Assembly: GCA_014650475.1 (NCBI GenBank)
Contig: BMVA01000013.1
Span: 186,001-250,000, forward strand
Direction: 5' to 3'
DNA: 64,000 nt
DNA from: Streptomyces albogriseolus
Lineage (GTDB): Bacteria; Actinomycetota; Actinomycetes; Streptomycetales; Streptomycetaceae
How positions within the stretch are numbered: position 1 is the stretch's first letter; each line of letters starts with the position of its first letter. This document shows positions 48,333 through 64,000 of this stretch, in pieces. Below the pieces are notes generated by a model that was not told the origin of the DNA, ran no database searches, and worked only from the letters and a program-made list of their open reading frames with translations. A program made the translations under genes and the position numbers.

Positions 48333-49392
48333 CTCGTTGGTCTGTCCGTGCAATTCGGATACTCCAGTTGCTAAGGCGGTGCGGCTTGCGCGCAGCTGAT
48401 GGCGTTTGAAGCTGCTGAAAACGTCTGGCGCCAATGTATGTGGCAGGGCCAGTGGGGCACGGTGCCGACCCGGAAATTGATCAAAACAGCAAGTGACGTA
48501 AGTGAGGTCACCCGCCTTGCGCGCTTAGGTTGATGCCGATGAGCAGGCCACCGTGCTGCATGTCAACTTCATTCCCGGGTGCACTCGAGATGCGATAGAA
48601 ATCGGTCTCCTGCGGTACGGGGAGGTGGGGAGACTGTTATGTGCATCGCAGGATCTTGAGCGCCCACGGCATCTGTTCCACAGCAGCTCTGCGGCAGCGC
48701 AGAGAGCTGAGAGCCGTGCGACGCTTTGAATTGACAGCCGTTTTGACGATTCCTTTCGACGTAGGTGCAGGTAGTGGCGGTGGACCATCAATGATCCGGG
48801 GAGACGCCGGTTTGGCTAACCGGCGATCCCGCGCTATGTTGCTTCGCTTCGCAACATGTCCGCGCAATGTGCGTCCGCTCGTGTAGTCGACTGTTGCAGC
48901 GCTGGCCCCGCCACCGCTTCGGCCTTCCACTGCTCCGTCGGCAACGACACCGACGCCTGTGCCTGGACTAACGCCGGGAGCCAGCCCACATCTCAACGGC
49001 GCAGCACACGTGCGCCTGTTGGCGGCGCATTCCGCCCGAGCCACGGCATGATCTCAGATGGTGTACAGTCCACCGACTTACGTCGCGGACTCCTTCGACA
49101 GCAACGACCTGGCGGCCATCACACGCTCAGTGTGTCCCTTGAGCCGCACGGGGCGATAAATTTGCTGACCGCCCCTGAAGGACACTGGGCGCGTCTGCTG
49201 TCGAGCGTCTGGTTGCCGAGGGGCGCCCGCCCCTTCGCCACCGCGCGCGGTTTGTGGGTTCGAGCGGCCGTAGGAGATCCCGGCGCCGGTCACTAACCGG
49301 TTGTTCGCGTTCTCGGGAAATCAGCGTGCGCGCACGATGCCGACGAGCTTGCCCAGTCCAGCGCCGGCGTCACGGACAGCGGTGGCATCATA
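48333..49392. other. 1.06 kb gap with a dispersed repeat, no clear gene
   Basis: I see no convincing gene. A 33-codon frame at 49058-49159 (MVYSPPTYVADSFDSNDLAA) is unassigned. The segment 48752-48840 is repeated in diverged form at 60283-60372. The last 90 bases precede the radical SAM gene and should hold its promoter. Confidence 0.4.
48804..48840 (-). repeat. Dispersed palindrome, copy 4 (reverse orientation)
   Basis: GACGCCGGTTT / AACCGGCGATC stem followed by CCCGCGCTATGTT. It is the reverse complement of copies 1-3 including the ACATAG box. The similarity with copy 5 extends leftward to a shared CCTTTCGACGT at 48752. Confidence 0.6.
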
Positions 49393-50298
49393 TTGTCGGT
49401 GAGGTGCAAGATTCGCCTGTCCGCAGCCGGCGTTCACTTGTTCGACCGCGTCTCCGGGATGAACGTGCTGCTCGACGAGGTGCCTGTTCCCGCTGAGCAG
49501 TTCTCCCGTGCTCCGCGGTACCTGTCCGTCGCGCTGACCAACGCCTGCGAGTTGCAATGTGCCTACTGCTACGCGCCCAAGCACGCCGCCGCGCTCGGCA
49601 TGGAGCGTGTGCTGGCATGGGCGGTCGAACTCGATGCCGCCGGCTGCCTCGGTGTCGGCTTCGGGGGCGGGGAACCGACCGCGTACCGTCGCTTTGCCCA
49701 ATTGTGTTCGAATATAGCCCAGTCCACGTCTATGGCGGTGACCTTCACGACCCATGGGCAGCGGCTCACACCCGAGCTCGTCGAATCCCTGCGCGGAGCC
49801 GTGCACTTCGTCCGTCTGTCAGTCGACGGGATCGGAGCCACCTACGAGCGGCTCCGCGGCCGACCGTTCGCGGCCGTGGTGCAGGCGGCCGGGTTGCTTG
49901 GCTCCCTCGCCCCGTTCGGCATCAACGCCGTCATCAATGCCGACACGGTCGGCGAACTGGATGACCTCGCCGAGTTCGCCGACAAGGTCGGTGCGTCTGA
50001 ACTTCTGCTCCTGCCGGAGCAGCCGACCGCGGCGACCCTCGGAATCAGTGACGCCGAGGCGCAGCGCCTCGTCGAGTGGGCCGCGACCGCCAGGACCGGG
50101 GTTCGGCTTGCGATCTCCCGCACCGGTCTCGAGGCTGCGCTGCCCACCGCGGAGGCCATCCCAGGCGAGCACCCCCTCGACGCCCACATGCACGTCGACG
50201 CGACCGGCGTCCTGCGCCCCCACGCGTATGCGCCCACAGGATTGTCAGTCGAGGGCTCCATCATGGAAGCCGTGCAGGCGCTGAGGGAGGCACGATGA
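49393..50298 (+). CDS. Radical SAM protein with degenerate SPASM-like tail
   Basis: A 301-residue radical SAM enzyme. The 4Fe-4S/SAM motif is CELQCAYC (Cys52, 56, 59) after LSVALTNA. GVGFGGGEPTAYRRF provides the GGE motif, and FVRLSVDGIGATYERLRG the ribose-contacting segment. The last 50 residues (DATGVLRPHAYAPTGLSVEG) look like the end of a SPASM domain but contain no cysteines, so no auxiliary cluster is expected. The start is TTG 49393 (GGTGG 8 bases upstream) or GTG 49399. Its stop overlaps the next gene by 4 bases. The substrate is unknown; no separate RiPP precursor gene is visible upstream. The operon partner suggests a defence or conflict role, not ordinary metabolism. Confidence 0.85.
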   Translation: MSVRCKIRLSAAGVHLFDRVSGMNVLLDEVPVPAEQFSRAPRYLSVALTNACELQCAYCYAPKHAAALGMERVLAWAVELDAAGCLGVGFGGGEPTAYRRFAQLCSNIAQSTSMAVTFTTHGQRLTPELVESLRGAVHFVRLSVDGIGATYERLRGRPFAAVVQAAGLLGSLAPFGINAVINADTVGELDDLAEFADKVGASELLLLPEQPTAATLGISDAEAQRLVEWAATARTGVRLAISRTGLEAALPTAEAIPGEHPLDAHMHVDATGVLRPHAYAPTGLSVEGSIMEAVQALREAR

Positions 50299-50729
50299 GG
50301 ATCTGGAACGGATACGGCTCGGAGCACTCGATGGACCTGGTTCTGATCGGCCGATTCCAGACGGTCACCGGCGCGAAGGCAGCGGAGGAGCGCATGGAGG
50401 CTCTGCAGGCGCTAGCCGAGGCCGCGTGGTCCGACGACGACTGGCGGAGCTCCGACGAGCGCATGCCTCCAGAACTCGGGGAAGCACTGCGCGAAATGAA
50501 GCTGTACGACATGGGGCGGTACGACGTCGACAACTACGCGTTTGATCACAGCGTCACCCGCGAAGGTGAGACGGTCCGGATCTGGACCGACGAGTCCGAT
50601 GTCCAGGGATTCCTGAAGGTGCTCCTCCATTACGGCGCGAAGGTCGAGGTCTTCTCGCGCCATGAATGGGACGAGGACGCGATCACTCGGTCGGATGCGA
50701 GCAACCGGAGCGACAGTGGATCTGACTGA
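50295..50729 (+). CDS. DUF6375-like small protein
   Basis: A 144-residue acidic protein that begins MRIWNGYGSEHSMDLVLIGR, a signature I associate with DUF6375, then FQTVTGAKAAEERMEAL and FLKVLLHYGAKVEVFSRHEW. It has an alpha/beta look with no known catalytic motif. The ATG overlaps the radical SAM stop, and its own end overlaps the start of the STAND gene by 14 bases, so the three products are made in a coupled way. It might be the substrate of the radical SAM enzyme, a sensor, or an adaptor; none is proven. Confidence 0.7.
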   Translation: MRIWNGYGSEHSMDLVLIGRFQTVTGAKAAEERMEALQALAEAAWSDDDWRSSDERMPPELGEALREMKLYDMGRYDVDNYAFDHSVTREGETVRIWTDESDVQGFLKVLLHYGAKVEVFSRHEWDEDAITRSDASNRSDSGSD

Positions 50730-53700
50730 TCTGGCACACTTGCCCGGCGCCGCCGACCGGAGCTTCGAAGCGCTCACGCGGGCCATCGTCTCCCGGCGCT
50801 ATGGTGCGCTGGGCACGATGCGGGAGCGCCGCAACCAGCCCGGCGTCGAGTTCTATCTGCACGTCGACCATGCCGGTGCTCTGGGCGACCCCGGCCGGAT
50901 CTGGGGGTGGTCGTGCAAATGGTTCATCCTCAACAGCAAGAATGAGCTCAGCGCAGGCCAGCGCACGCAGATCGAGGACTCGCTCTCCAAGGCGATCGAG
51001 CACGTCGCCGGACTGACCGACTTTGTCCTCTGTCTTCCAGAGCGGCCCGCCAAGGGGGACGAGGAATGGATCAACGGACTCAGTCGGCAGGATGTCCGCG
51101 TCAAACTCTGGTCCACCGAGAACTACGATGCCCAGCTCGCCGGACATGACGAGCTCCGCTCTACCTTCTTCGGTGAACTCGCCCTCACCGCAGACGTACT
51201 GGCGCAAGTCCACAAGCGATCTGTTGCGCCCGTCGAGGCCCGATGGACGCCACGGCTGCACACCTCCCACCACGTGGAGCACCGCATCGACCGGGTCTTG
51301 TTGCGCCCGGCGTCGTTCGAGTGGCTGCAGCAGCGCACCGACGACATCGCAGCCCGGATCCAGGCACTGCGCGCAGCCCTCAACGGCCTCGACACCACCT
51401 TCCGCCAAGGCGCCGTCGAGATTGCCGACGACCTGGACCGGTTCGTCGACGACCTGCGGGAGGTCCTTGACGCCGGCAGGAGCCTCCGGCCCTGGGAGGT
51501 TCGCGAGCGTCTCGCCGAACAGCGGCCACCCACAACCTCTCCCCGCACGCTGCGACGCCTGGTGCTCAGACTGAGGCAGCAACGCCTGCCCGAGGCGTTG
51601 CTGGTCACCGGCCTCGGCGCGGAGATCCGCGACATCGTCCAGTGGCTGCACGACACACGGGCAGACATCGAAGCCCCCCTACTCGCCGTCATCGCCGCCG
51701 CGGGACAGGGCAAGACGCACCTTGCCGCGCAGATGACCTCACCGAACGACCAGCCCACGGCAGGAGTCTTCATCCAGGGCGGAAACCTGCGCGCCGGCGG
51801 GACACTCGACGACCTCGCGCGACGGATCCCCGGACTGAAGATCGACCACTTCGAGGACCTCCTGGAAGCGCTCAACTCAGCCGGCAACCGCGCCGGCTGC
51901 CGGATTCCGTTGATCATCGACGGCCTGAACGAGGCCGAGCGGCCCTCGGAGTGGAGGACACTGCTCGCCGGATTGGCACCGGCCCTGGGCGGTTACCCTC
52001 ACGTGGCGGTGATCGTCACCCTCCGCGAAGCACTCGCTGACCAGGCTCTTCCGAAGGACACCGTGCCTCTGGAACTGGAGTGGCAGCGCGCGGAAGTCGA
52101 TGACATCCTCCGCGTCTACTTCCGCCACTACCTGATCAACCCGGCCGATGCCTGGCTACCGGTCGGGGAGTTCCACAACCCGCTGTTCGTCCGCATGTAC
52201 TGCGAGGCCGCGAATCACGACCGCCGAGTGCCAGTAGGCGTGGAGGCGCTGCCTCAGTCCCTCATCGGCGTCTTCGAGCTGTACCGCGAGGGCGTGGTCG
52301 AGCGGCTGGCCCATGACCCGGCCCGCATCCCGGTGCCGGCCGACCAGATCCAGCGCCGCCTCACTGCTCTGGCGAGATACATGTGGACGCACAACGTCCG
52401 TCGGCTTCCGTTCGACGAAGCGCGAAGAATCCTCGACGCCGACCAGTCGAACTGGGATGAAAGCCTGTTCCGGCGCCTCGTAGAGGAAGGAGTGATCTTC
52501 CGCGAGGAGATCAGGGGTTCCGACGACACTGAGTGCGGCTTCGTTTTTGATCGCCTCGCCGGATACCTGATTGCCGACGCGATTCTGGTGCGCATGCCCT
52601 ACGCGGAGGTCAACGAGCAGCTCTCGGAGGCGGCCCTCTGGCAGTCTCTCCTGGGCGACCATGCGCACCCCCTCGGCGAGGACATCCTCATCGGCCTCAT
52701 CTCACTGGTGCCACGCCGCTTCACCAGACACCACCTGTGGCGCGTCGCCCCGGATGAGCATCGTTCGTTGGTGCTCGCCCAGGAACTCAATACCGAGTCC
52801 GGTTTTCTCGACGACGAAACTGTCGACGCGCTCGCAACCGCGCTCGTTACCGGACATCCCAGCAAGAGGAAGGGCAGGTCCGCATTCGACCGTCTGTGGG
52901 AGGTCCGCAGGTCCGCTCCGCACCGCCTGAACGCCGCTTTCCTCGACCAGGTCCTGCGTCAACTGCCTCTCCCTCAACGCGACCTGCGCTGGACCGAATG
53001 GGCTCGAGGCCGGGCTACAGGCCGGCTCACGGCAGACCTTGAACGAGCGATCGACAGGTGGACCGGAAGCAGCATTCGCGCCGAGAGGGACGACCTGGAC
53101 GCGCAGGCCATTGCCTGGCTGCTGACTTCCACGGACACGAGCATGCGGGACCTGGCGACGAAAGCTCTCCAGCGCTACGGTCGTCCGGAACCCAAGCGGC
53201 TGTTTGATCTCGCCGCTCGGATGCTCGATGCCGACGACCCCTACGTCGTCGAACGCCTCGTCGCCGCCGCGTTCGGGGCCGCCAGCGCCCACCAGATGCC
53301 CGACCCCGGCGGACCGCTCGAAGGCGCGCTGCGGGATTGGCTAGTGCAGCTACGCGATCGCTTCCTCGACGGCGGGACCACACCCACCTCGCACGAGCAA
53401 CTGCGCGGCTATGTACGGACCACCTATGAATTCGCCGGCGCCCTCCACCCAGCCGCCGTCCCGGACGGGGTTGATGCCTTCGCGCCGAGGTTCGCCGCCG
53501 TGGCGCCCGCCGAGGTGATGGAGGACGACGACCCCAACGCCGAGGAGTGCGACCGCACCTTCGGGATGGACTTCGAGAACTACATCATCGGGGCCGCCAT
53601 TAATGGCAGGGACAACTACGACTTCGACCACCCCGACTACCGCAGGGCCCGCGCCGAGGTCATGGCCCGCGTCTGGGGACTGGGCTGGCGTGAGAAAGAA

Positions 53701-54723
53701 TTCGGCAGCGTCGACCAGTCCATTGCCGCGAACGCCGAACGGCCTTACAGCACCAAAAGGAGGGTGGAGCGGTACGGTAAGAAGTACGGCTGGATCGCCT
53801 ACCACGAGATGATCGGCCGCCTCGTGGACATCGGCCGCGCACCAGCTCCCTTCGGGGACGTAGAACGCTTGATGCCTGACATCGACCCGACCTTTCCCGA
53901 TAGGCCCCCGGTGGCGCCCATGCCCCTTCCATTGTGGGCGCCTGTGGAGCCCACCGACGACCAGACCTGGCTCACCTCGGGGAGGGTGGCGGTCCCGGAC
54001 GAGCTCTGGTCACCCATGGAAATCCACGGAGTGGACGGCGGCTGGCTTCTGGTTGAGGGGTATCTGGACCATCGCCACGCCGGGCGGACCGTTTTCGGGT
54101 TTTTCCGCACCCTCCTGCTGGAGCCGGAGGACGCGGAATCCGCCCAGCGGCTCGCCAGTGACCGTCAGTATCTGGGAAACCACTTCTTCCCTCCGCTGCC
54201 GACGGTCCGCGATGTGCTGGCCGCTGAGATGCCGTGGAGCCCTCGGTTCGAGTTGAACTTCGACGACGATGCCCCAGGCGCCCTCCCTCACCGAGCGCTG
54301 CGTCGAGATTGGCAGGACGACAGCATCGAGTTCGGCCAGGTCGCCGTGGATTTCGCCCCCGACAGCACTTCGGAGATCGGGCTCGGCGGGAGCTACGACG
54401 TGCCGTCGTTTGACTTCGCCGCCCGATTCGACCTGCGCCAACTGCCCGGCAGTGTGGACCTCGTGGGTCTGGACGGCCGGCGCGCCTCCGCAGTCTTCCG
54501 CGTGGACAAGCCCTGGCGAGGCCACCTGCTCTTCCTGCGCCGCGACCTCGTCGAGGACTTCGCCGCTGATCGCCGGATCATGCAGGTGGCCTGGGGCGAG
54601 CGTGAGGTAGCCGTCGACTGGCATTCTGTTCCTCCCTGGGTACGCGCGGCGCAGCGCAGCCACGCGAACGTGTGGCGTCGCATCCGGCTGCTCGGGGCGG
54701 ATCAGAACAGCGCCGTGAACTAA
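50716..54723 (+). CDS. Large STAND/NACHT-like NTPase with nuclease-like N-terminus
   Basis: A 1335-residue protein. Residues 1-150 resemble a restriction-endonuclease fold (AIVSRRYG, QPGVEFYLHVD, WGWSCKWF, i.e. E...SxK). A predicted helical linker follows. The NTPase has Walker A IAAAGQGKT (K333) and Walker B LIIDGLNEAE (D402), with a helical region after it. The C-terminal 700 residues look like HEAT/TPR-type repeats. They include VERYGKKYGWIAYHEMIGRL (about 1018-1037), a motif I recall from Avs-type antiphage STAND proteins. GTG at 50716 has GGAG 5 bases upstream. This layout (effector, STAND, sensor) is that of immune NTPases that detect phage proteins. Pairing with a radical SAM enzyme is unusual. 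Confidence 0.8.
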   Translation: MDLTDLAHLPGAADRSFEALTRAIVSRRYGALGTMRERRNQPGVEFYLHVDHAGALGDPGRIWGWSCKWFILNSKNELSAGQRTQIEDSLSKAIEHVAGLTDFVLCLPERPAKGDEEWINGLSRQDVRVKLWSTENYDAQLAGHDELRSTFFGELALTADVLAQVHKRSVAPVEARWTPRLHTSHHVEHRIDRVLLRPASFEWLQQRTDDIAARIQALRAALNGLDTTFRQGAVEIADDLDRFVDDLREVLDAGRSLRPWEVRERLAEQRPPTTSPRTLRRLVLRLRQQRLPEALLVTGLGAEIRDIVQWLHDTRADIEAPLLAVIAAAGQGKTHLAAQMTSPNDQPTAGVFIQGGNLRAGGTLDDLARRIPGLKIDHFEDLLEALNSAGNRAGCRIPLIIDGLNEAERPSEWRTLLAGLAPALGGYPHVAVIVTLREALADQALPKDTVPLELEWQRAEVDDILRVYFRHYLINPADAWLPVGEFHNPLFVRMYCEAANHDRRVPVGVEALPQSLIGVFELYREGVVERLAHDPARIPVPADQIQRRLTALARYMWTHNVRRLPFDEARRILDADQSNWDESLFRRLVEEGVIFREEIRGSDDTECGFVFDRLAGYLIADAILVRMPYAEVNEQLSEAALWQSLLGDHAHPLGEDILIGLISLVPRRFTRHHLWRVAPDEHRSLVLAQELNTESGFLDDETVDALATALVTGHPSKRKGRSAFDRLWEVRRSAPHRLNAAFLDQVLRQLPLPQRDLRWTEWARGRATGRLTADLERAIDRWTGSSIRAERDDLDAQAIAWLLTSTDTSMRDLATKALQRYGRPEPKRLFDLAARMLDADDPYVVERLVAAAFGAASAHQMPDPGGPLEGALRDWLVQLRDRFLDGGTTPTSHEQLRGYVRTTYEFAGALHPAAVPDGVDAFAPRFAAVAPAEVMEDDDPNAEECDRTFGMDFENYIIGAAINGRDNYDFDHPDYRRARAEVMARVWGLGWREKEFGSVDQSIAANAERPYSTKRRVERYGKKYGWIAYHEMIGRLVDIGRAPAPFGDVERLMPDIDPTFPDRPPVAPMPLPLWAPVEPTDDQTWLTSGRVAVPDELWSPMEIHGVDGGWLLVEGYLDHRHAGRTVFGFFRTLLLEPEDAESAQRLASDRQYLGNHFFPPLPTVRDVLAAEMPWSPRFELNFDDDAPGALPHRALRRDWQDDSIEFGQVAVDFAPDSTSEIGLGGSYDVPSFDFAARFDLRQLPGSVDLVGLDGRRASAVFRVDKPWRGHLLFLRRDLVEDFAADRRIMQVAWGEREVAVDWHSVPPWVRAAQRSHANVWRRIRLLGADQNSAVN

Positions 54724-55678: not shown

Positions 55679-58483
55679 TTACGGAGTGCTGGGACGGTCC
55701 CGGCAGATCGCGGCGAAGTCACAGGTGGCGCAGGTGTTGCACCAGGAGGTCTTGCGGGGCATGTCGTTGCGGCGGAGTTGGTCCCCGGCCTTGGCGACCT
55801 TGCCGGAGATCTCCCTCAGCAGGGTGTCGTTGACCTCCTCGCGACTGCTGCGGCTGCCCTCGTCGAGGTTCAGGACCTCGACGAGGTCGGCGCGCTTGCC
55901 GCTCAGCTCCTCGTACCCCGCAACGTAGATGTGCAGTTGATCGCGAGTGACAGCGTCAGCCTGGGCGCGTTCCTTGGACTTGAAGTCCACGATCGACTGC
56001 TCACCGGTGTCGATCCGGCGGATCAGGTCGATGCGTCCGCTGACCGTCACCCCCGGCGTGAGGTGCACCTCCACCGGCTGCTCGGAGTGCTCGGTGAGGG
56101 CCAGTCGCGAGCCGTTCTCGCGGAGGTAGCGATGGACGGAGCGGATGGCCGCGTTGCGCAGCTGTTCCTTGAGCGGCTCCGGCGCGAACGGAGCGTGCAG
56201 ATGCCGGTCGACGAGCGCCTCCACCTCCGTCGTGTCGACGATGTCGCCCTTCACGGCGCGCTTGTGCACCTCCGCCATCACGTCGTGGAGCGACTTGCCG
56301 TACCCGAGCTCCTTCTGCAACGGCGAGTCGAAGCCGTACAGGAATCGCAGCTTGAACTGGTACGGACATTCGAACAGGTACTTCAGCTCGCTGAAGCTGA
56401 AGACGATGTCGGGCGTGTCGGCCAGGGGCGTTGAGGGCAGCCGGTTCAGCGTGGACTCGTCGGGCCTGGCGGCCTCCCGGGTCAGGACGTGGGTGTTGCG
56501 GGTCGCCTCGGCGAAGAACTGTGACTCCCGCTGGTAGAGCTTGCCCGGCCCGGGGGAGAAAGAGAGGGTGAGGTACTTCTGGGCGCGGGTCGCAGCCACG
56601 TAGAAGAGCCGGCGCTCGTCGTCCTCGCTGCCGCGGTAGCGGTCGGCGTCGTTGACGGCGGCCTCCGGGACGACGTGGAACACACCGAGTCCGCCCTGCC
56701 GCTTGCTGGGGAAGCGATTGCGGCGCATACAGGGCACGAACACCGCTGGCCACTGCATGCCCTTGGCCTGGTGGACGGTCGCGATCGTGACGGCGTCGGG
56801 TCGGGCGTATCCGGCGTCGGCGTCGCTCTCCTCGTAGTAGTCGCCGGCCTGGTGCTCCAGCCACTTGGCGAAGGTGGCGAACCGGTCTGGCGGGCTGCTG
56901 AGGAAGTGGATGCGCTCGTAGTCGCCGATGGCGGTGCTGAACCGTCCCAGGTTGTAGAAGGCGAGCTCGCTGCGCTCGCGGCCGACCTGGGCCGTGAGGT
57001 GTTCCTCGCGGATGCCAACCTCGCCCAGGAAACGCTGGTAGGTGCCCTGGATCGTGTAGGTGTCCCAGGGCATGCCCTCCGCCCAGCCGCGGGCCTCGTC
57101 GAGGATCTTCACCCCGCGTTTCAGGGCCTCCTCGCGGAGCCCGAGCCGGGCGTCCGTCCAGGCCGTGACGACGGCGTCGCCGTCGACGGTTCCGGCGATG
57201 TAGTCGAAGCAGGTCTTGGCGGCCTGGACCTCGGGCGTCTGGAACAGGCGGCTCAGGCCCTTGATGATGTAGCGGATGCCCCGGGCGCGCATCTCCGTGA
57301 CCAGTGGGTCGGCGTCGCCCGACACGCTGCGGAAGAGGACGGCGAAGTCTGAGTACGCCAGGCCCCGTGGCTGTGCGCCGGCACGGTCGGTGAAAGGCAG
57401 GCCGATCATCCACTCGATGCGGTCGCAGATCCACGCGGCCTCCTCCTGCGGCGTGCCGAAGGAGAGGGCCAGCAGGTCGCCACGGTCATAGCTCTGGTGG
57501 CCACTGGCGATCATCGACTTGCTCAGTCGACGCGAGGGATCGATGCCTTCCGCCACCCGGCGTGCAAGGTCCACCACTGCCTTGGACGAGCGGAAGTTCT
57601 CGTTGAGTGTCACGGTCTTGGCGCTGCTGTGGCGGGTGGTGAACGTCAGGATGTTGTTCACCGCGCTTCCGCGCCACTGGTAGATCGTCTGGTCGTCGTC
57701 CCCCACGACGCACAGGTTCGCGCCGAACTGGATGAGGCCGGCGATCAACTGCTCTTGAACGGGGTTGGTGTCCTGGTATTCGTCCACCACGACGTATCGG
57801 ACTGTGTCCTGCACGTGGGCGCGCAGATTGACCACGGGTTCGGTGGCCGGCCCTCCCGTACTTGGTGGCGGGAGCAGCAGGTCTGCGGCGAGGCGGAGGA
57901 TCTCGCTGTAGTCGAGGTAGTGCAGGCGCTGGAGCAACGCTCGGTAACTGCTCAGGCCGTCGAGTACGTCCGACGGCAACTTGTCCTGGTTGATTTCGTC
58001 TTCTCGGAGCATGCCCAGAACTCCTTGGTAGAGACGGGAGTTGACGTACCGCTTCATCGGGCGGGTCGGTTTGCCCTTGGTGCGGATCTGTGTCGTCGTC
58101 AGGCCGCTGGCCCGGCTGTTGCGGTCGATCAGAACACGAGCCTGCACATCGCTGAGGACAGTGCACTTGAACGTTTCCGGCACCTGGGACTGCAGCATGC
58201 TCAAGGCGTAGCCGTGCATGGTGCCGACGAAAAGCTCGGCCAATCCACGGACATCTCCCAGTTCCTCTCGGACGCGAGAGACGATGCGCTGCTTCAGCTC
58301 TCCGGCCGCCCGGTCGGTGAACGTGAAGGCGACAATGTGCCGCGGTTCCACGCCGGGCAGTCGGAGCAACTTCACTACCCGCCGGGCGATGACTTCGGTC
58401 TTTCCGGATCCAGCGCACGCGACGATTCCCAGGTGCCGGTCCACGGTGTTGATCGCTGCCAGCTGATTTGAGGTCAGTTGCAC
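55679..58483 (-). CDS. UvrD-like helicase fused to a PD-(D/E)XK iron-sulfur nuclease
   Basis: A 934-residue protein. Superfamily 1 motifs are GIVACAGSGKTEV (Walker A), AFTFTDRAAGELKQR (Ia), VVDEYQDTNPVQ (II), VGDDDQTIYQWRGS (III), LNENFRS (IV), ATVHQAKGMQWPAV (V) and ERRLFYVAATRAQ (VI). From about residue 680 comes an AddB/RecB-like nuclease: FECPYQFKLRFLYG, VSGRIDLIRR, SIVDFKSKERA (catalytic D and K) and CNTCATCDFAAIC, whose cysteines with the earlier one suit a 4Fe-4S cluster. GTG at 58483 has a perfect GGAGG 7 bases upstream; the open frame continues to 58543. Related single-gene helicase-nucleases occur in defence islands; DNA repair is the alternative. Confidence 0.88.
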   Translation of the reverse strand: MQLTSNQLAAINTVDRHLGIVACAGSGKTEVIARRVVKLLRLPGVEPRHIVAFTFTDRAAGELKQRIVSRVREELGDVRGLAELFVGTMHGYALSMLQSQVPETFKCTVLSDVQARVLIDRNSRASGLTTTQIRTKGKPTRPMKRYVNSRLYQGVLGMLREDEINQDKLPSDVLDGLSSYRALLQRLHYLDYSEILRLAADLLLPPPSTGGPATEPVVNLRAHVQDTVRYVVVDEYQDTNPVQEQLIAGLIQFGANLCVVGDDDQTIYQWRGSAVNNILTFTTRHSSAKTVTLNENFRSSKAVVDLARRVAEGIDPSRRLSKSMIASGHQSYDRGDLLALSFGTPQEEAAWICDRIEWMIGLPFTDRAGAQPRGLAYSDFAVLFRSVSGDADPLVTEMRARGIRYIIKGLSRLFQTPEVQAAKTCFDYIAGTVDGDAVVTAWTDARLGLREEALKRGVKILDEARGWAEGMPWDTYTIQGTYQRFLGEVGIREEHLTAQVGRERSELAFYNLGRFSTAIGDYERIHFLSSPPDRFATFAKWLEHQAGDYYEESDADAGYARPDAVTIATVHQAKGMQWPAVFVPCMRRNRFPSKRQGGLGVFHVVPEAAVNDADRYRGSEDDERRLFYVAATRAQKYLTLSFSPGPGKLYQRESQFFAEATRNTHVLTREAARPDESTLNRLPSTPLADTPDIVFSFSELKYLFECPYQFKLRFLYGFDSPLQKELGYGKSLHDVMAEVHKRAVKGDIVDTTEVEALVDRHLHAPFAPEPLKEQLRNAAIRSVHRYLRENGSRLALTEHSEQPVEVHLTPGVTVSGRIDLIRRIDTGEQSIVDFKSKERAQADAVTRDQLHIYVAGYEELSGKRADLVEVLNLDEGSRSSREEVNDTLLREISGKVAKAGDQLRRNDMPRKTSWCNTCATCDFAAICRDRPSTP

Positions 58484-59321
58484 CGAGGTGCCTCCACTCG
58501 TCACGTCGGGGACCTGCTCCCCGAGCGACGAACTGTGTACCAAGCGGCACTGACAGTCGCTTCATTGCTGGGACACCTCATCTGTCACCAGTTCGAATTT
58601 CGTTTGGTGTGCCTGTCGGGCAATCCGTCTAATGGCCTCTGATCTTTCCATCGGAGGTGCGTTGATCGCCTCACTCCAATGTGTATGCCTGTTCGATGTC
58701 CGTCCCCCGTGTGTTCGATGCGTCGCGTGGGATGATCGTGCAAGCGACGGGGCACTAGGGGAGGCGGCGGGCGCTGCCGGGTGGCTTCCGAAGAACGCCA
58801 GGCCGTATCCCGTCCTCGATTGCAGAGTCGCGGATTCGTTGACGGGCAGCGAGTTCGATGGAGCGAGTCGTAAGTCCTTGCAGGCATACATCTGAGGAGC
58901 GGCTGGGTAGTGGTACGAACGACGCGGCACCTACCGCGTCGGCTGGCTTCCGGACGTCCGAACGATCGTCGTAAATTGCAGGCGATTTGTTGCCGAAAAA
59001 TGCGAACGTGCGTCAGGAAGGTGCCGCTAGCACAGGTATACGCGCCAGGCCGAAACGCGTAGGTGCTTAGTTAGAAGGCACGTGCCCTATCCGCCGAGCT
59101 ACGAGGTCCGACCTGCGAAAACGCAGCTTCCCTGCGCTGCCCCCCAGGGTGCGGGGGACACGCGGGGGAATCGCAGATCCTTGGTGGCCGGGGGACGCGT
59201 GCGACGTTCTCCAGCCGGGCCGTACGTGCGATCTCACACTACCTTCAACCCTTCGCGGCCCCTCGCGGAAACAAACCTGCACCTGATCGGCGTTGGTGAT
59301 CACTGAACCGAGGAGGCGAAG
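58484..59321. other. 0.84 kb gap with a tRNA-like 5' half
   Basis: No gene is convincing. On the minus strand, about 59110 to 59063, the sequence looks like the first half of a tRNA: a 7-base acceptor strand (GACCTCG), TAGCTCGGCGGATAGGGCA as a D-arm, then a TTCTAA anticodon-loop-like segment (anticodon TCT, Arg). The following bases repeat CTAA and do not form a normal T-arm or acceptor 3' strand. It is probably a truncated tRNA, possibly an old integration point. Confidence 0.35.
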
Positions 59322-60212
59322 GTGTCGGGCCTGAAGCTGTTCCACACGACGAATAGCGGCGTGACCGAGGTCCCGCCGCGCCTTGCTGAGGTCGAGGCGG
59401 ACGTGCAGGACCTCATCGAGGCGCACATGGAGACAATGCTGGGCGTGCGGTTCCTGGCGAGCGAGTACGTCATCGACTGCGTTGACGGCGGGCGTATCGA
59501 CTCACTGGGAGTCGATGAGAATTTCGCACCCGTGGTCGTCGAGTACAAGCGCGGCACTGATCCTGGGGTGATTCACCAGGGTCTCTACTACATGGCGTGG
59601 CTCATGGCCCACAAGGACGCCTTCCAGAACCTGGTCCGCGACCGATTCGGGGCATCGGCCGCGTCCCAGATCCTGTGGAGCGCACCCCGGCTGATCTGTG
59701 TCGCTGGCGACTTCACCCGTTATGACGCGCACGCCGTGCGTGAGCACCGGCGCTCGATCGACCTGGTCCGCTACCGGTACTTCGGCAACGACCTCATCGG
59801 CCTGGAGACCGTGGCCTCCGTCACCGGGCATCCGGCCAGGGCCAGGCGGGTCCGCCGACGTGCGGCCGGGACGATGTCTGCCCGTCGGCAGGACGGAACC
59901 CTGGCTGAGCTGGCCGAGGCGGTCAACGAGGTTTTGCTCAGCCTCGGGGACGGCATCACCCGGGTCCAGCGCAAGCAGTACGCGGCGTACCAAAGGCTGC
60001 GGAATTTCGCCTGCGTTTGCCCGCCGCAGCAGACCAAGCTCCTCGTCTACCTCAAGGCCGATCCGAAGGCGGTCGACATCGTCCCCGGGTTCACCCGGGA
60101 CGTGACGGGGCTCGGCCATCACGGCACAGGCGACCTGGAGGTGCAGCTGCGTACGGAGCGGGACCTTGACCGGGCTCAGGACCTGTTCCGCCTCAGCTAC
60201 GCCGCGGTGTAG
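59322..60212 (+). CDS. DUF91 (NucS-like) nuclease-domain protein
   Basis: A 296-residue protein. The N-terminal half has the NucS/DUF91 pattern: MLGVRFLASEYVID, then GRIDSLGVDENFAPVVVEYK (D...ExK active site), IHQGLYYMAWLM and PRLICVAGDF. The C-terminal half ends with a DUF5655-like segment (FACVCPPQQTKLLVYLKADP, DLEVQLRTERDLDRA). GTG at 59322 has GAGGAGG upstream. It should be a Mg2+-dependent nuclease. It lies between the helicase-nuclease and an IS3 element in the defence island and appears monocistronic. Confidence 0.8.
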   Translation: MSGLKLFHTTNSGVTEVPPRLAEVEADVQDLIEAHMETMLGVRFLASEYVIDCVDGGRIDSLGVDENFAPVVVEYKRGTDPGVIHQGLYYMAWLMAHKDAFQNLVRDRFGASAASQILWSAPRLICVAGDFTRYDAHAVREHRRSIDLVRYRYFGNDLIGLETVASVTGHPARARRVRRRAAGTMSARRQDGTLAELAEAVNEVLLSLGDGITRVQRKQYAAYQRLRNFACVCPPQQTKLLVYLKADPKAVDIVPGFTRDVTGLGHHGTGDLEVQLRTERDLDRAQDLFRLSYAAV

Positions 60213-61886: not shown

Positions 61887-64000
61887 CTACTCGTCCGCTG
61901 CGTCATCTCCCTGTTCCTCGGGCGGCGCCGACCGCCGGTACTGGGGGTGATCGAGGTCGAGCTGCTTGGCTGCGTGCAGGGGTACGGGGTAGCGGGAGCG
62001 GTCGGACCAGGCGATGGTCTGGTGACACAAGCGTGCGGTCGCCCGTGCGAGCATCGTTCGGTCGACCCCATCGGCCACACCGACGGGGTAGATCTCGGTC
62101 GCTGTGACGGCCCACCACGGAGCCTTAAGCTCATTCGTTTCCCGCTCCCCCTCCTCCCCGCCCTTGCCCGGGTCGGCATCCCAGCGAGTGATGGCCTTGC
62201 CCAGGTCTCCGCCCTTGGCTTGATAGTTGCGCGGGATGTTGAACAGGATCCAGAAGGGATTCCCGAAGTCCACCTCGGCACGGTGTAGTTTGGCCGATGC
62301 GAACAGGATGGATTCCTTTTCGGTGTCCGGATCGCTCTCGCGAGGGACGGGAACGTACTGGGGCACCTCGTCCGCCGCGACGTTCATCCGGATGACCGCG
62401 CTCGGCTTCTTGCGCGGTGCGTTCCTGCCTTTGCCGTACCCCGGCAGCCAGGTACGCGGATCGGTGATGTCCTCTTCCTGATAGCTCTGATTCTCGTTGT
62501 GGAGGCCCGTCCACATCCGTCGGCAGGCGTGCCCGTCGACCATGACGACATAGCCCATGTCGGGTTCCAGCTCGTCGCGGACGAGGCTGGAGAGGGCATC
62601 TTCGACGTGTGCTGCTGCTTCCGCCCAGCGTTCCTTGTCCGTCTCGCCATTGCCGTCGACGTGGAGTGCGTAGTCACTGGCGTGGAAGGCGGCGATTGCC
62701 TCCCGGTAGGGCACCCAGGCCCCGATTTGCGGCGTCCACGCTCGCATCGTCCAGGCGTCGCCCTCCTCCTCCGGCGGGAACAGGGCGGTAGCAACAATGA
62801 TGCGTTTGGTGTGCTTGCCGTCGGCGGTCTTGGCTTGCCGGCGGGCGTGGATCCCGCAGTAGACGAGTTTCCCCGCCTCGCGTCCCTTCCGGTCCTTCGC
62901 GATGGCCCGCGCGAGGCGCTGGTCGATGACCCCAAGTGAGCGGTACAGGTCGAGGAGCGCCATGTAAGCAGCGTGGTCTTTCCCCGGCTTCGGAGGACTG
63001 ATTTCTGTTGCGGGGTTTCCGAAGGATCCCGGTTTCATTCCCGTGGTGAACTGACAGACGAAGCCCTTCTTGGCCAGGAAGCGGCGGACTTGGAATTTCC
63101 CGTCATAGCGCTCCTTGCGCAGCAGGAAGGCGTTTCGCTTCTCTCCGTCCTTCTTCTTCAGGGCCGGGATCTCGGTCTCGCACCAGACGCCGACCATTAC
63201 CTGCGACTCGCTGTCGGCGAAGTCGTCTTCGAGGGATTTGAACTCCACGGTCCGGTTGATGGCGTCGCCGTGTGACAGGAAGCGCTCGGCCTGGCGGAAC
63301 ACCACGCTGATGCCGGGAGCGAGGAAGACCTCCTCGCCCGGCGAGGGATCGCCGATGGGCGGGCCGTCCGGGAAGGCCAGGGACAGCGCGTTGATCATGC
63401 GAAGGCGGGTGTTCCAGCGGTACCACAGGCATACGATCCGCAGGTGCTCGAAACCCTGTGCCTTCACGGAAGCCGTGATCTCTTCGGGTGGGGGAAAGCC
63501 AATGTTGTGGAGGAGTTCGCCGGCCTCGATACGGCTTGCACGCTCCTGCGGGGCCATCTTCTGTTTGTCCGTGGGGCGCGGCTCGAAGGTCATCGGTTCC
63601 ACCGTGAAGTCGACCCAGGTGGCCTTCTCGCCCAGCACTTTGGAGACGTGTTCGGCCAGGAGCCGCAGGTGGAGGGTGCCAGGTCCCGTGCCGACAGCGA
63701 AGTTGTCGTTCTGCGGCATGAGCGGGCGGATGACGCCGGCGTCAGGGGTGATGAACGAGGGGAATTCCCCCTTCTCGGCGGCCCTTTCCAGCAGGTCCCG
63801 CTCTTCGGTGACGCGTGCCTGCAGGGCTTGCAGGACGCTGATGTCCATCTCGTCGCGTGCGAGCAGTTCCAGGGCGCGCTGGTTGACGGCGCGAACGTTG
63901 CCGTTGCGTACTAGTTCGGTGTGCAGGATGGGAAGGCCGTCGCTGCCCTGGTAGATGTGCGTGGACTTCGCGTAGACCATGTTGCTGTGGACGCGGGTGA
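61887..64000 (-). CDS. pPIWI-RE (Argonaute-related) defence protein, partial
   Basis: An open frame of about 700 residues continues off the right edge. Its C-terminal part matches the RNaseH/PIWI-like half of pPIWI-RE proteins: GKLVYCGIHARRQAKTADGK, RIIVATALFPP, MGYVVMVDGHACRRMWTGL, an aspartate-rich insert, then ELKAPWWAVTATEIYPVGV and a final YPVPLHAAKQLDLDH. Family members are 900-1000 residues, so a few hundred N-terminal residues are missing, although an ATG occurs at 63980. pPIWI-RE is normally encoded with a DinG-type helicase and a REase, which would lie outside the window to the right. The presumed function is defence against plasmids or phage. Confidence 0.75.
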   Translation of the reverse strand, partial: TRVHSNMVYAKSTHIYQGSDGLPILHTELVRNGNVRAVNQRALELLARDEMDISVLQALQARVTEERDLLERAAEKGEFPSFITPDAGVIRPLMPQNDNFAVGTGPGTLHLRLLAEHVSKVLGEKATWVDFTVEPMTFEPRPTDKQKMAPQERASRIEAGELLHNIGFPPPEEITASVKAQGFEHLRIVCLWYRWNTRLRMINALSLAFPDGPPIGDPSPGEEVFLAPGISVVFRQAERFLSHGDAINRTVEFKSLEDDFADSESQVMVGVWCETEIPALKKKDGEKRNAFLLRKERYDGKFQVRRFLAKKGFVCQFTTGMKPGSFGNPATEISPPKPGKDHAAYMALLDLYRSLGVIDQRLARAIAKDRKGREAGKLVYCGIHARRQAKTADGKHTKRIIVATALFPPEEEGDAWTMRAWTPQIGAWVPYREAIAAFHASDYALHVDGNGETDKERWAEAAAHVEDALSSLVRDELEPDMGYVVMVDGHACRRMWTGLHNENQSYQEEDITDPRTWLPGYGKGRNAPRKKPSAVIRMNVAADEVPQYVPVPRESDPDTEKESILFASAKLHRAEVDFGNPFWILFNIPRNYQAKGGDLGKAITRWDADPGKGGEEGERETNELKAPWWAVTATEIYPVGVADGVDRTMLARATARLCHQTIAWSDRSRYPVPLHAAKQLDLDHPQYRRSAPPEEQGDDAADE

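Follow-up and report, generated by a model that had tools for sequence, protein, structure and literature searches.

We analyzed a 64,000 nt stretch of the Streptomyces albogriseolus genome (assembly GCA_014650475.1, contig BMVA01000013.1, forward-strand positions 186,001-250,000), hereafter called the window, and concentrated on three overlapping genes on its plus strand. They encode a radical S-adenosylmethionine (SAM) enzyme (rSAM), a small protein of the DUF6375 family and a large STAND NTPase related to the immune receptor Avs2. Coordinates without a locus prefix are positions in the window; L-numbers denote relative loci that were fetched and G-numbers denote genomes. The rSAM gene (49393-50298, 301 aa) matched PF04055 with E 3.5e-15 and carries a CxxxCxxC motif, Cys52/56/59 (49546-49569), which is the expected [4Fe-4S] site. 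The product of the second gene (50295-50729, 144 aa) matched PF19902 with E 9.2e-61 (204.7 bits, gathering cut-off 27.5). The third gene (50716-54723, 1335 aa) encodes the STAND protein with its N-terminal nuclease-like domain, and was matched by the PADLOC Avs2 model PDLC02164 with E 1.2e-110. The rSAM and DUF6375 genes overlap by 4 bases (ATGA), and the DUF6375 and STAND genes by 14 bases. A first-pass annotation of the same DNA had these coordinates and overlaps right, and the motifs that it had pointed out, Cys52/56/59, K333 and GKKYGWIAYHE, were all found in place. The rSAM gene starts with TTG, and the residues right after the start recur in the relative L011 (MPVTCKVRLS). The STAND gene starts with GTG; in-frame ATG codons at 50695 and 50662 would add 7 and 18 residues, respectively.

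We wanted to see how far the three genes are kept together, as they had been described as one unit. We scanned 84,980 species genomes and confirmed 115 DUF6375 stretches; the following counts rest on the best 80 of these 115. An rSAM gene was present in 78 of the 80 loci, a STAND gene in 77 and both in 76. In all 76 two-partner loci, which include genes in pieces or running off the contig, the order was rSAM, DUF6375, STAND on a single strand. Three of the other four loci (L058, L066 and L076) were cut by contig ends. The exception was L086 (L086:7834-10561), from a metagenome-assembled genome, where DUF6375 stands without rSAM or STAND despite readable flanks, the only such locus among the best 80 of 115; it may represent decay or misassembly. 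The loci were spread over approximately 16 phylum-level groups, as judged from record titles and our reading of the names, and Deinococcus plasmids add one more. The 4-base overlap between the rSAM stop and the DUF6375 start was seen for 64 of 91 rSAM open reading frames (ORFs) in 90 loci, a few of which are duplicates.

Searches started from each of the genes gave a consistent picture. DUF6375 was found in 16 of 72,556 plasmid records. The annotation places a radical SAM gene under each match, and the rSAM search returned the identical 16 records. The STAND search returned 58 plasmid records, of which the 15 nearest all carry rSAM and DUF6375; at the next match identity dropped to at most 25% over residues 319-1185. 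The window STAND protein (P0003) matched 4 genomes among 61 relatives: the nearest two (G000 and G438) have the rSAM-DUF6375 pair, while G443 and G446 do not. With the Avs2 model, 8 of 293 genomes of the order were matched. The cassette-type members G000, G470 and G612 all come with rSAM and DUF6375; for the other five, neither was detected within the fetched 16-17 kb around the STAND gene. The rSAM profile matched 37 of 345 genomes of the class. Three full-length members (G000, G470 and G778; at least 399 bits) all lie in cassettes; the rest were a fragment in G810 (126 bits) and 33 generic enzymes (at most 83 bits). DUF6375 itself is rare: of the 396 genomes searched in the phylum just one, the window's own, scored above the cut-off. 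We did not find a recurrent fourth gene among 141 mechanically called flanking ORFs of 150-900 aa from 49 loci: no Pfam family (E<=1e-8) occurred in more than 3 of them and no PADLOC family (E<=1e-15) in more than 2.

Further, we compared the window with regions of 16-17 kb surrounding the same-genus cassettes L130 and L129 (blastn, E<=1e-5). Each gave one match: positions 49377-54715 at 89% DNA identity for L130 and 49383-54652 at 72% for L129. The flanks of both loci did not match the window at this threshold. The stretch 49377-54715, to which no strand is assigned, is the sole one common to the window and the fetched L130 region. The cassette thus moves as a unit, with nothing beside it common to the same-genus genomes. 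The ratio of nonsynonymous to synonymous substitution (dN/dS) for the three genes was 0.11-0.21 against L130 and 0.18-0.25 against L129. Since 76 of 80 loci keep the order and dN/dS was 0.11-0.25 in all three genes, the arrangement is not due to chance. Pairwise distance matrices of the three proteins were correlated (r 0.79-0.89, 66 loci; permutation maximum 0.16).

Pfam gave only a weak AAA_22 match (0.016) for the STAND protein. A profile built from 33 cassette STAND proteins matched the solved Avs2 structure 9O4E with E 4.4e-87 in two aligned stretches. The second of these (97.2 bits) takes in the GKKY and DIDP region, and it aligns the C-terminal part of Avs2 with our putative sensor region (53566-54720). 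GKKYGWIAYHE (residues 1021-1031, 53776-53808) lies within this region. It had been singled out as a feature of this protein; because the second stretch covers GKKY, the motif, in the form GKKYxWIAYxE, is a feature of the C-terminal region of Avs2 in general. The NCBI equivalog model for Avs2, NF041813, gave 256.5 bits, below its cut-off of 1000. Judged by sequence, the cassette STAND protein is a divergent Avs2. The NTPase motifs are invariant in 74 aligned STAND sequences: Walker A, GQGKT (51703-51717), has G330, G332 and K333 in 74/74, and the Walker B region, PLIIDGLNE (51907-51933), has D402, L404 and E406 in 74/74.

Solo relatives exist as well, e.g. L132 and L012. In a FastTree phylogeny 77 cassette-type proteins, including L108, which is cut upstream, were split from 11 solo STAND proteins with support 1.0, the tree being unrooted and the solo sample small. 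Cassette-type proteins found later scored at least 1307 bits and solo proteins at most 770, with a model that was built from cassette members and is biased toward them. The solo protein of L012 (L012:7162-10953) ends in a C-terminal region with GKKYSWIAFFE, has no recognisable nuclease head and lies next to an apparent restriction-type locus. A haloarchaeal plasmid protein annotated as HNH endonuclease (L110:3972-8165) also matches the Avs2-like model, possibly by effector exchange within the same receptor family. Avs2, or AVAST type II, is a single-gene system. This is not the character that we observed for cassette-type proteins: our STAND-started searches gave the pair in 15/15 near plasmid hits and in 3/3 cassette-type genomes. 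According to one report (PMC12931631), the effectors of Avs1-Avs4 are nucleases, and these receptors directly recognise a phage protein, be it terminase, portal or another.

The head of the STAND protein (50716-51315, limits approximate) has the motif GVE45F ... GW-S66-C-K68, from which we take it to be nuclease-like; no Pfam family matched it. E45 is present in 74/74 sequences, and position 68 is K in 58 and R in 16. Position 66 is Q in 73/74, and the window has the sole S. S66 (50911-50919) is also found in L129, L130 and L011, none of which is among the 74. It represents a lineage-specific change in what is likely an active-site motif.

The predicted model of the rSAM enzyme was of high confidence (predicted local distance difference test, pLDDT, 94.1). 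Foldseek placed SkfB (E 2.5e-15) and SuiB (E 1.2e-14) at the top, with TM-scores to the query (TMq) of 0.75-0.77 for SuiB. The overall fold is that of the SPASM/twitch maturases of ribosomally synthesized and post-translationally modified peptides (RiPPs); MoaA matched too. Viperin-like structures came soon afterwards (6e-13, TMq 0.59-0.68). C52, C56 and C59 were conserved in 67/67 aligned rSAM sequences. We did not detect a set of auxiliary Fe-S cluster cysteines in these sequences; there is one C-terminal Cys column (position 253, 50/67), absent in the window. The tail of the window enzyme is cysteine-free, as had been noted, although 50 of the 67 relatives have Cys253. A RiPP recognition element (PqqD-like domain) gave no Pfam match at E<=1, and the model shows a short beta-stranded extension at the N-terminus. 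The first-pass annotation had called the enzyme not viperin-like, and we rejected viperin on score, although the fold is near: the NCBI viperin model NF038283 gave 45.1 bits, under its cut-off of 180.

The DUF6375 model had pLDDT 84.7 overall, and residues 1-10 a mean of 55. We read its core as ferredoxin-like from the strand order and weak matches in the predicted model. No fold match at E<=0.001 was found in the PDB or the viral library; the best hits, with query TM-scores of 0.33-0.38, were designed proteins of the ferredoxin fold. The profile gave no credible match among PDB sequences. In the N-terminal tail (residues 1-13, 50295-50333), M1, W4, E10, H11 and S12 are present in 74/74 aligned rows. 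Mean entropy was 0.77 bits for residues 1-10 and 0.60 for residues 11-20, the two lowest blocks; the next value was 1.12, for the gappy last block. No column has Cys in 5 or more of the 74 rows. This tail is the proposed target of the rSAM enzyme, because it is near-invariant though modelled with low confidence.

On this basis we propose, tentatively and with a little less than even confidence, that the three genes form an Avs2-type immune cassette in which the tail of DUF6375 is modified by the rSAM enzyme and the receptor depends on the resulting protein as an obligate partner. The data show which families the proteins belong to, that the cassette is kept intact, that it is specific to one clade, that the genes are inherited jointly and that the tail is conserved; the modification, its target, the partnership and the role against phages are inferred. 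The enzyme would act on the conserved flexible N-terminal tail, and the modification would probably be a carbon-centred bond or an oxidation at W4, Y7, H11 or S12; this chemistry is suggested because the DUF6375 family has no conserved cysteine. Modified DUF6375 would be read by, or dock with, the Avs2-like STAND nuclease. It would determine when the C-terminal sensor can set off NTP-driven assembly and the N-terminal nuclease, presumably against phages. As to the sign of the partnership, we lean slightly toward a co-receptor or ligand, with restraint (a guard) close behind. PMC7159879 offers a precedent, a conflict system with an rSAM enzyme whose predicted substrate is a peptide.

We also looked for the pair in viruses, and it was present on three viral contigs. 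One of them, L100, holds the whole cassette, and two, L104 and L101, have no STAND gene in approximately 8 kb on either side. L104 (7992-9256), Mu-like by our reading of its ORFs, carries the pair with a 4-base overlap. L101 (6886-16105) has a DUF2971 gene, a DUF6375-like gene (tail GSGHS), the rSAM gene and then a type III restriction-modification system, so the order of the pair is reversed. M1, I3, W4, H11 and S12 are kept in both STAND-less pairs, one start being trimmed to an internal Met. The STAND-family scan of viral contigs did not return L104 or L101, and a search of viral contigs with P0002 alone found nothing. Alignment searches of viral contigs led to the same three contigs, one search finding two of them. 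Among the best 80 of 258 viral rSAM relatives only those on these three contigs belong to this family, the others scoring at most 75 bits. The phage collection held no relative of DUF6375 (E<=0.01) or of the rSAM enzyme (E<=1e-6). The pair can be kept alone, because two viral contigs hold it without a STAND gene, and therefore readings based on restraint and on counter-defence stay alive. That a bacterial NLR-like receptor reads a tail mark installed by the rSAM enzyme, while some phages carry the pair alone to interfere, seems to us rather unlikely as a whole.

In the restraint reading, modified DUF6375 would hold the receptor back as a licence, phage interference with the pair (e.g. SAM depletion or synthesis shut-off) would release it, and pair-only phages would keep it quiet. 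We regard this as unlikely. The pair without STAND on 2 of the 3 pair-holding viral contigs and the tight coupling of rSAM and DUF6375 (the 4-base overlap in 64/91) argue for it. Were the receptor toxic and released by rSAM loss, no broken rSAM gene should be found beside a full-length STAND gene, but a complete Halomonas chromosome (L078:9075-10004) has an rSAM gene with one in-frame stop next to a full-length STAND gene. The STAND gene was broken or missing with rSAM intact in L011, L015, L018, L048, L075 and perhaps L067, which is near a contig end, and both genes were damaged in L072 and L077. Damage is roughly proportional to gene length and therefore shows no asymmetry, with sequencing errors possible; the pattern cannot decide between activator and restraint. 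We give a distinctly low probability to a metabolite route, in which the rSAM enzyme would make a small modified metabolite like viperin's ddhNTPs and DUF6375 would be a helper or binder of the product. The viperin-like folds that follow SkfB and SuiB (TMq 0.59-0.68, target-normalised up to 0.74) and the PADLOC pVip scores (55 bits for the window enzyme and as much as 70 among relatives) fit such a route. Against it, the NCBI viperin model reached 45 bits of 180, the sequence profile matched SkfB (7e-18) better than any viperin-like entry (approximately 1e-12 at best), the pVip match extends only to residue 225 and does not cover the C-terminal part, and no further gene recurs beside the cassette.

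DUF6375 could also be a substrate adaptor through which the rSAM enzyme modifies the STAND protein or a phage or host protein. This is improbable in our view: DUF6375 is a small folded domain in the predicted model and the STAND gene adjoins the pair in 76/80 loci, but two viral pairs have no STAND gene near them and the short, flexible, near-invariant tail sits on DUF6375 itself. It is highly improbable that the cassette is not immune and serves another stress or regulatory function. Its flanking genes are heterogeneous, as such a role would allow, but the Avs2 homology spans the NTPase and C-terminal regions, and the patchy spread, the transfer as a unit, the plasmid setting and the defence-type neighbours in the window argue against it.

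Several observations weigh against the modified-partner reading that we prefer. Solo Avs2 proteins occur without the pair, one locus (L086) holds DUF6375 without either partner, and the two STAND-less viral pairs may mean that the pair has another job. Target-normalised TM-scores reached 0.74 for viperins and 0.57 for SkfB/SuiB. The conserved disordered tail may be a mere binding segment that becomes ordered in a complex. Finally, some loci were found with a search pattern inside the tail; we controlled for this with an independent C-terminal pattern, and in the rows matching it M1, W4, E10, H11 and S12 were present in 54/54.

The defence-type surroundings proposed in the first-pass annotation were supported by three neighbours, the pPIWI-RE, UvrD-PDDEXK and PDC-S18 genes. 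The neighbours of the cassette in the window are a UvrD-PDDEXK gene (55679-58543), a PADLOC PDC-S18 gene (59322-60212), a pPIWI-RE gene with RNaseH and MID domains (61887-63998, near the window end) and a phage-type integrase. No tRNA genes were found in the window, and a promoter and terminator scan, which is uninformative in a G+C-rich genome, returned 0 and 0. At other loci we observed isolated flank genes for a type I specificity subunit, McrBC, AbiC, TIR, nSTAND1 and transposases; there was no random-gene control and we claim no enrichment. On a Vibrio harveyi conjugative plasmid (L019:6045-13873) the cassette lies shortly before the resistance genes qnrVC6 (quinolone) and dfrA (trimethoprim). 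In L015, from a plasmid of V. parahaemolyticus, the STAND gene contains an IS3 element and is followed by brxL.

We compared the cassette with known systems. It shares with Avs2 (9O4E) the STAND NTPase core and a C-terminal region with GKKYxWIAYxE and DIDP. It differs in scoring 256 of 1000 bits on the NCBI equivalog, in forming a separate clade and in having rSAM and DUF6375 wherever both flanks were readable in our searches, while the 11 solo comparators lack them. pVip is likewise a small rSAM enzyme of similar fold in which a single cluster is expected, whereas the cassette enzyme is far under the viperin cut-off and is partnered by DUF6375 and a STAND gene. SkfB and SuiB are the closest solved folds by E-value; the cassette enzyme lacks their auxiliary-cluster cysteine set, and the substrate that we propose for it is not a short precursor peptide but a folded protein bearing a tail at its N-terminus. 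The VMAP/FtsH ternary systems, as described in PMC7159879, resemble the cassette in being NTP-dependent conflict systems with an rSAM enzyme predicted to modify a small peptide, but they are based on vWA-MoxR NTPases and use other peptides. The literature searched contained nothing on DUF6375 and nothing joining Avs2 with radical SAM. As previously claimed, no described system joining rSAM, DUF6375 and STAND turned up among the titles and abstracts found, most subscription papers and bioRxiv preprints being outside the coverage. The suggestion of a new immune system is partly supported: the gene combination looks undescribed, and the STAND protein is itself a divergent Avs2.

In summary, a three-gene cassette of the Avs2 kind with two new partners is well supported, and the proposed mechanism is plausible. 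The three genes travel as a unit across many phyla and therefore resemble a known bacterial immune receptor in a form that seems undescribed and may be chemically modified. For DUF6375, a Pfam family with no assigned function, this provides a specific role that can be tested and a site where modification is likely. That a clade of Avs2 occurs together with an rSAM enzyme and one small protein suggests a requirement, in some NLR-like receptors of bacteria, for a partner that carries a chemical modification. If this is true, immunity would be conditioned on a post-translational mark on the tail of a dedicated partner protein.

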